Source: Desulfoscipio geothermicus
GTDB lineage: Bacteria; Bacillota; Desulfotomaculia; Desulfotomaculales; Desulfallaceae
Length of the DNA: 64,000 nt
Assembly (NCBI GenBank): GCA_016841205.1
Contig: JAENZP010000001.1
Span: 124,001-188,000, forward strand
Reading direction: 5' to 3'
A program made the position numbers and the translations under genes. Numbering within the stretch: the first letter of the stretch is position 1; each line of letters starts with the position of its first letter. A model generated the notes under the pieces. It was not told the origin of the DNA. It saw only the letters and a list, made by a program, of their open reading frames with translations, and ran no database searches. Below, piece by piece: positions 43,883-44,998 of the stretch.

Positions 43883-44683
43883 TTAACCTTTTTTATAATA
43901 TGCACAGCGGTCTTTTCGACACACGTGGGGGTGACGCTCTACATGATCACAGATGATTGCTTCGTGCATAACCGTCGGTACTGTAATATGCAAATATTCC
44001 TTCGCCAGTTGGACGCTCTTGGCTAGTGCGGTTCGAACAAAGTTTTTGCAGCAGCATGGTCCGGTTTCGTGGGCAATTACATTTATTATCTTACTTACAA
44101 CTTTCATTGTAATAGCCGTTTCCCAGTCTTTAGGACAGGCTGCCCCTAGAATAACGCTAAAACAAGCGCCAACGGCGGGGGCAATACCGCAAACACCGGT
44201 TAGACCACAGTACCCTCCAATGGCCTGTCTCTGGGTTCGGTTCAGCGCTTCATCAATTTGGTCCTTTGTTATTTTAAGAGTACCCTCGTTTTTTATGGCC
44301 GCCATTAATGCACCGGCGGCTATCCAGGCGTTTTCGCAGCCGAGCATGGGAACTTTGTCTTGATAGCCCATCAGAGTTTCTGCAATTTCCAAGGGATTCT
44401 TGGATGTTGTGTTAAGCACGTAATCTCTAATCAGATCAAAAACGTCTTTTCCATGACAAGCATCACAGATATAATGGCCATTGGAGCAAATAATATTAGC
44501 GATCTCAGTTTTACCACAGCGAAAACATTTAAGCTCTTTACCCCTCTCAAAGTATATTAGTACACTATTGCATATTTGGCAGTTTTCGGTACTGTTTGGT
44601 GTATGATACCGACTGGTATCCGAACCGGTACCTCAACAGTCGGCAGTATTATCGTTATTAATTTTATTAATTAATTCGGTCAC
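43883..44683 (-). CDS. DUF5714-family protein, candidate selenoprotein (in-frame UGA)
   Basis: Read from GTG 44683 (perfect GGGGAGGTGAT site just upstream), the frame runs 266 codons with a single in-frame UGA at 44635-44633, codon 17, directly after Cys16 (DC-U-GTGSD). Downstream of the UGA comes a zinc-ribbon-like Cys set: C35xxC38, C53xxC56, C66, H70, C73 and C76. The DUF5714-like region follows (MLGCENAWIAAGALMAAI, QAIGGYCGLTGVCGIAPAVG, HETGPCCCKNFVRTALAKSV). A conventional call would start at the GTG at 44419 and lose all of the N-terminal cysteines. A SECIS-like hairpin follows the UGA. Function is unknown; a Cys-Sec pair suggests redox or metal/metalloid chemistry. Alternative: a nonsense mutation in a Cys codon. 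Confidence 0.65.
44605..44635 (-). promoter_or_regulatory. SECIS-like hairpin after the in-frame UGA
   Basis: In mRNA sense, the UGA is followed by 12 nt and then GATACC-AGTC-GGTATC (44620-44605), a perfect 6-bp stem with a 4-nt loop. The loop begins 19 nt after the UGA and has G at its second position. Bacterial SECIS elements are known to have an apical loop about 16-37 nt after the UGA with a G among the first two loop bases, so it fits. Confidence 0.55.
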
Positions 44684-44998
44684 GCTAATCACCTCCCCGG
44701 GTTTTTATTTATTTTATGTTTCTACATCGGCTTACAAATTCCCCTGCCGTTGCGAACTCACGTACATTAAATAGCCCGCCCATACTAAATTCACATCATA
44801 ACCTCTATATTCAAAACTACTTTTAATGAATGTTTAGAATTAATGTGGTTATTCCCTTGTATCCACCTAAATCTAACAAACGTTTATCTCCTAAAATTAC
44901 ATGATCTTTCTACTTGAATTAAATTTTAAATAATAACGTACAATAGCATGTAGATGTATGTAAAACATATAGATCATAGCAATTATGGAGGTCCGATT
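44684..44998. other. Intergenic region 44684-44998
   Basis: A 315-nt AT-rich gap between the divergent DUF5714 and glycosyltransferase genes. It must hold both promoters, but I see no clear match. Apart from the two ribosome-binding sites at its ends, nothing is recognised. Confidence 0.5.

Follow-up and report, generated by a model that had tools for sequence, protein, structure and literature searches.

The closest described relative of the protein analysed here is MbdU, a metal-binding double selenoprotein that is credited to Haft and Tolstoy 2025 in a review (PMC13188914) and listed there as a CU-motif selenoprotein with two selenocysteines (Sec). In MbdU, an N-terminal CU tail, a ribbon and a DUF5714 domain are followed by a DUF2284 domain with the second Sec. 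NCBIfam covers it with model NF045648, whose whole-protein cut-off is 600 bits; a full DUF5714-DUF2284 example from a Nitrospira MAG (L133) reaches 780 bits. The ArsM/DUF2284 and ArsM/AhpD selenoproteins (NF041536 and NF041537) bear the same Sec-carrying partner domains as the DUF5714 fusions among the relatives of our protein, but they have a methyltransferase in place of DUF5714, and our protein carries neither partner domain. A third group consists of DUF5714 proteins that share the ribbon and the core, some of them adjoining or fused with the radical-SAM protein TrsS; they lack the CU tail and form a separate, distant branch of the tree. DUF5714 itself was not mentioned in the literature searched.

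The window, a stretch of 64,000 nucleotides from Desulfoscipio geothermicus, carries on its minus strand, from 44683 to 43883, a single gene of 266 codons plus TAA (43885-43883). It opens with GTG (44683-44681) and has an in-frame UGA as codon 17 (44635-44633), directly preceded by a Cys codon, TGT (Table 1). We propose that its product is a DUF5714/MbdU-family selenoprotein, in a short form with one Sec and with the role outlined below, and give this reading a probability of roughly 0.85. The protein matches the Pfam family DUF5714 (PF18978) with an E value of 2.2e-51 and 174.3 bits (gathering cut-off, 26.2). NF045648 aligns over most of its length (model positions 15-268 of 468, E = 1.6e-114), and the score of 383 bits lies below the cut-off of 600. 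The gene ends after DUF5714 with its one UGA, and both the DUF2284 domain and the second Sec are absent. Since the homology is to the first half of MbdU, and two of the features that define MbdU are missing, we class the protein as a distinct short form. The earlier note had announced a candidate new selenoprotein. This has to be narrowed, because the same protein makes up the N-terminal half of the already catalogued MbdU; the novelty, as judged against the NF045648 model and the review, lies in the stand-alone form with one Sec, which is unclaimed by any NCBIfam model, and in its further architectures. In a public plasmid record that matches at 54%, no gene is listed at that place, but the table of this record holds four features only and is uninformative on annotation.

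Table 1. Features of the DUF5714 gene in the window, with the basis of each assignment
Feature	Position	Strand	Basis
Whole gene, UGA at codon 17 read as Sec	43883..44683	-	Sequence and comparison with relatives
Shine-Dalgarno sequence GGAGG, 8-base spacer to GTG	44692..44696	-	Sequence; same-genus relatives have a purine-rich site before the start
Cys16 (TGT) and Sec17 (TGA) pair	44633..44638	-	TGA in 69/80 named relatives, 67 of them after Cys
SECIS-like hairpin GATACC-AGTC-GGTATC	44605..44620	-	Covariation, 63 relatives
Cys-rich zinc-ribbon-like region, residues 35-78, CxxC..CxxC..C..CxxCH	44450..44581	-	Cys/His invariant in alignment
DUF5714 domain (PF18978), residues 85-263	43895..44431	-	Invariant C159, C165, C211, C212, C245, C255, C260
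Internal GTG, start chosen by mechanical ORF calling	44417..44419	-	ORF list

The reading frame was described correctly in the earlier note. The GTG is preceded by a GGAGG ribosome-binding site, and the frame runs through one UGA into the Cys-rich ribbon and the DUF5714 region. As that note had also said, standard gene calling misses the 88 N-terminal residues: the ORF caller starts at the GTG at 44419. This is exactly the start expected if the UGA simply terminated a short leader peptide, and many distant, Sec-less DUF5714 proteins do begin just before the ribbon. We nevertheless consider a leader peptide very improbable. Between the UGA and codon 89 the window gene has no in-frame ATG, GTG or TTG, and yet this stretch encodes the ribbon, whose cysteines are invariant in an alignment of 16 relatives. 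The relatives have start codons with plausible ribosome sites upstream of the UGA, and the codon conserved across phyla is UGA itself, not UAA or UAG, together with a covarying hairpin.

The conservation of the UGA was followed from the order to other phyla. In the order-level survey, 23 of 113 genomes had a homologue, and TGA preceded the ribbon in 15 of the 16 close ones; in a phylum-wide sample, UGA was present in all but one of the 17 strongest matches, and that one begins past it. Scanning GTDB contigs yielded 80 named loci, and the alignment with homologues that the earlier note had suggested revealed an in-frame TGA before the ribbon, at the same place, in 69 of them, with a Cys codon before it in 67; in two (L112 and L114), Gly precedes the Sec. 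The homologues also retain the CxxC ribbon and do not simply start past the UGA without it, the outcome that would have spoken against Sec. The UGA-containing loci span Bacillota (including Desulfosporosinus, Clostridium carboxidivorans, Moorella, Thermincola and Anaerosolibacter), Nitrospirota, Thermodesulfobacteriota, Spirochaetota, Actinomycetota and other MAGs. The tree requires 4 changes for the label "N-terminal Sec", versus 16.5 for shuffled labels. Five of the 80 loci (L086, L119, L122, L136 and L137) have no N-terminal in-frame TGA, and five more (L125, L129, L139, L142 and L146) lack the N-terminal UGA but have one in a C-terminal tail.

A single close relative, from a Pelotomaculum MAG (L028:1477-1515, identical to L110), reads TCA (Ser) instead of TGA but keeps the hairpin, which may reflect a recent loss or an error in sequencing. 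This case could be taken to mean that the UGA marks a decaying pseudogene or is itself an error. That reading is refuted by the occurrence of the same UGA in dozens of independent genomes and by the conservation of the protein, which is 81-88% identical to its same-genus homologues with invariant Cys, and its probability is close to nil. A clean Cys-for-Sec orthologue of the same clade was not found among the relatives examined; the distant Cys forms, CCC in L036/L037 and CSC in L035/L041, belong to TrsS-linked or other branches and are not close orthologues.

The hairpin downstream of the UGA (GAUACC-AGUC-GGUAUC) has 6 bp and a G at loop position 2, and its loop lies 18 nt after the UGA, a geometry that agrees with published rules for bacterial SECIS elements (PMC13188914). 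Folding of the window sequence alone was no better than chance (z = -0.94). The comparison was therefore extended to 63 relatives, aligned on sequence only, with shuffles and slid pairing as controls. Here, 89% of the cells were paired, all six pairs had changed on both sides, and 77 compensatory cells were counted, compared to 18.5 in shuffles. The covariation score was 0.551; shuffles gave 0.228 ± 0.017 and slid pairing no more than 0.149. RNAalifold recovered the inner five pairs unprompted. The hairpin that the earlier note had picked out at the right distance is thus borne out in geometry and in evolution. Downstream of the Sec, the conserved G-Q-H is probably in part a by-product of the GGUC loop. 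Consistent with decoding of the UGA, all of selA, selB, selC and selD, which the earlier note had recommended looking for, are present in the genome: selA (C7:56780-58159) adjoins selB (C7:58198-60087), tRNA-Sec lies at C6:81111-81205 (68.6 bits), and selD at C24:126799-127719 (L151). The latter has one in-frame TGA, and SelD of this organism is probably a selenoprotein itself. Nearly all genomes of the order have selA, so its presence does not discriminate there.

Because the UGA is conserved across phyla, the SECIS changes are compensatory, the sel machinery is complete and no usable start exists before the ribbon, we regard insertion of Sec at codon 17, as predicted from the sequences, as close to certain. 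The preference of the earlier note for Sec over a random stop is upheld by the same four lines of evidence.

Closer inspection of the relatives revealed several architectures around DUF5714. MbdU-type relatives are DUF5714-DUF2284 proteins with two Sec, and further loci encode fusions of DUF5714 with CMD/AhpD (L072:6001-7137, L079:6001-7134, L095 and L102). The DUF5714-AhpD fusions have three predicted Sec, in the CU tail, in GCEPU and in a terminal CKTU that is followed by a hairpin; a similar fusion (L122) has no clear N-terminal Sec. No NCBIfam model reaches its cut-off with the DUF5714-AhpD fusion, and the three-Sec form is apparently unmodelled. In the relatives with a UGA only at the C-terminus, the tail reads CHTUKPU (L125, L129, L142 and L146) or SCUK (L139), and a hairpin follows the UGA in all three that were folded (L125, L129 and L139). 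To judge from these sequences, the Sec arm looks as though it had moved from one end of the protein to the other. In one genome, a 695-aa open frame (L035; G096:C1:2245984-2248008) joins a DUF5714-type protein to TrsS. TrsS as a functional partner in the D. geothermicus genome was rejected, as no TrsS scored over the cut-off there.

How might such a protein work? According to the sequence-based model, SelB, Sec-tRNA(Sec) and the hairpin past codon 17 would insert Sec beside Cys16 in a flexible N-terminal tail, which would be followed by the Cys-rich ribbon and then by the helical DUF5714 core with its seven invariant Cys. The vicinal Cys-Sec pair could make and break a selenenylsulfide, or it could bind a soft metal or metalloid, and in either case it may act as a mobile arm on the Cys-rich core. 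The CU pair is reminiscent of the GCUG tail of thioredoxin reductase. In the predicted structure, most of the N-terminal 31 residues are disordered (pLDDT < 50), whereas the core is confident (pLDDT 93). This difference, together with the position of Sec at the C-terminus of some relatives, suggests a mobile arm, a role that we consider plausible at slightly less than even odds.

The fold of the core offers a further, more specific possibility. Sequence searches found no solved relative, and Foldseek gave no match at E < 0.001. With the first model, the best structural match was CyuA (Z = 7.0, rmsd = 3.5, 134 residues), followed by PrpD/MmgE in the next three places; with a better core model, PrpD was again at the top (Z = 5.6, versus 4.1 for the next), and CyuA was not among the matches listed. 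CyuA is reported to share its fold with PrpD/MmgE, and three conserved Cys hold its 4Fe-4S cluster (PMC12647591). Furthermore, two hhalign runs placed GYCG and TGPxC on the cluster-Cys motifs of CyuA, at a probability of about 1-2%. The DUF5714 core may share the CyuA/PrpD fold, as far as the models go. It is imaginable that it is a diverged [4Fe-4S] domain of the CyuA/L-serine dehydratase/MmgE-PrpD type, in which C159, C211 and C212 hold the cluster and the Sec tail binds or serves the open iron. The tail would then resemble the C-terminal Cys with which L-serine dehydratase binds its cluster. We consider this cluster-bearing core rather unlikely: the resemblance to CyuA, the L-serine dehydratase alpha subunit and MmgE/PrpD is a possible, weak one of the helical core, with no significant sequence or Foldseek match, Z values below 8 are common for helical models, and CyuA was absent from the matches listed in the second structural look.

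The neighbours of the window gene (TrpB-like, RecQ and a glycosyltransferase) gave no clue to function, and the gene stands alone. In Desulfotruncus arcticus and Peptococcaceae BRH_c8a (L228 and L229), a cluster closes with DUF1638 and then the DUF5714-Sec gene; its other members encode DUF2284, two MtaA-type proteins, one corrinoid protein, a RACo activator and an MtrH-like protein, and CbiM/CbiN cobalt transport adjoins. Of these names, DUF1638, RACo and a URO-D/MtaA-type relative were checked by Pfam or NCBIfam, and MtrH, corrinoid and Cbi were read from sequence. The cluster further encodes two unnamed small proteins (about 104-106 aa). Elsewhere, ArsR-type regulators lie near the gene in 9 loci and ACR3 in 4 (named from sequence; raw counts without a background rate). 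These neighbours and the fusions point toward a role of the DUF5714-Sec protein in corrinoid-dependent methyl transfer or metal(loid) handling, for which we see about equal chances either way. The protein might instead be a non-catalytic, zinc- or metal-binding chaperone or a sensor of metal(loid) stress, with the Cys-Sec pair as a soft-metal ligand only. The zinc-ribbon-like N-terminus, the ArsR, ACR3 and P-type ATPase neighbours at some loci and the NCBIfam label "metal-binding" for MbdU would fit, but the corrinoid methyltransferase clusters at other loci and the AhpD fusion with its CxxU suggest redox or methyl chemistry, and we regard a mere chaperone or sensor as unlikely. A broader idea, to which we give only a minor chance, takes DUF5714 for a widespread enzyme core, Sec-dependent and of the [4Fe-4S] or metal(loid) kind, with a movable Cys-Sec tail at either end; corrinoid methyl-transfer and arsenic-type clusters would use this module alone, joined to DUF2284, or joined to AhpD with three Sec.

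In sum, gene callers drop the first 88 residues of the short one-Sec protein, the probable active pair included, and as this form is present in many anaerobes, the annotation of dozens of genomes would change. One Sec-tail protein that is combined with DUF2284 or AhpD, which are also partners on the arsenite methyltransferase selenoproteins, offers a concrete way into the part that selenium plays in metal(loid) metabolism and in corrinoid methyl metabolism. If the reading of DUF5714 as an enzyme core were true, it would stand for a branch of methyl or metal(loid) metabolism that depends on selenium and is as yet undescribed.
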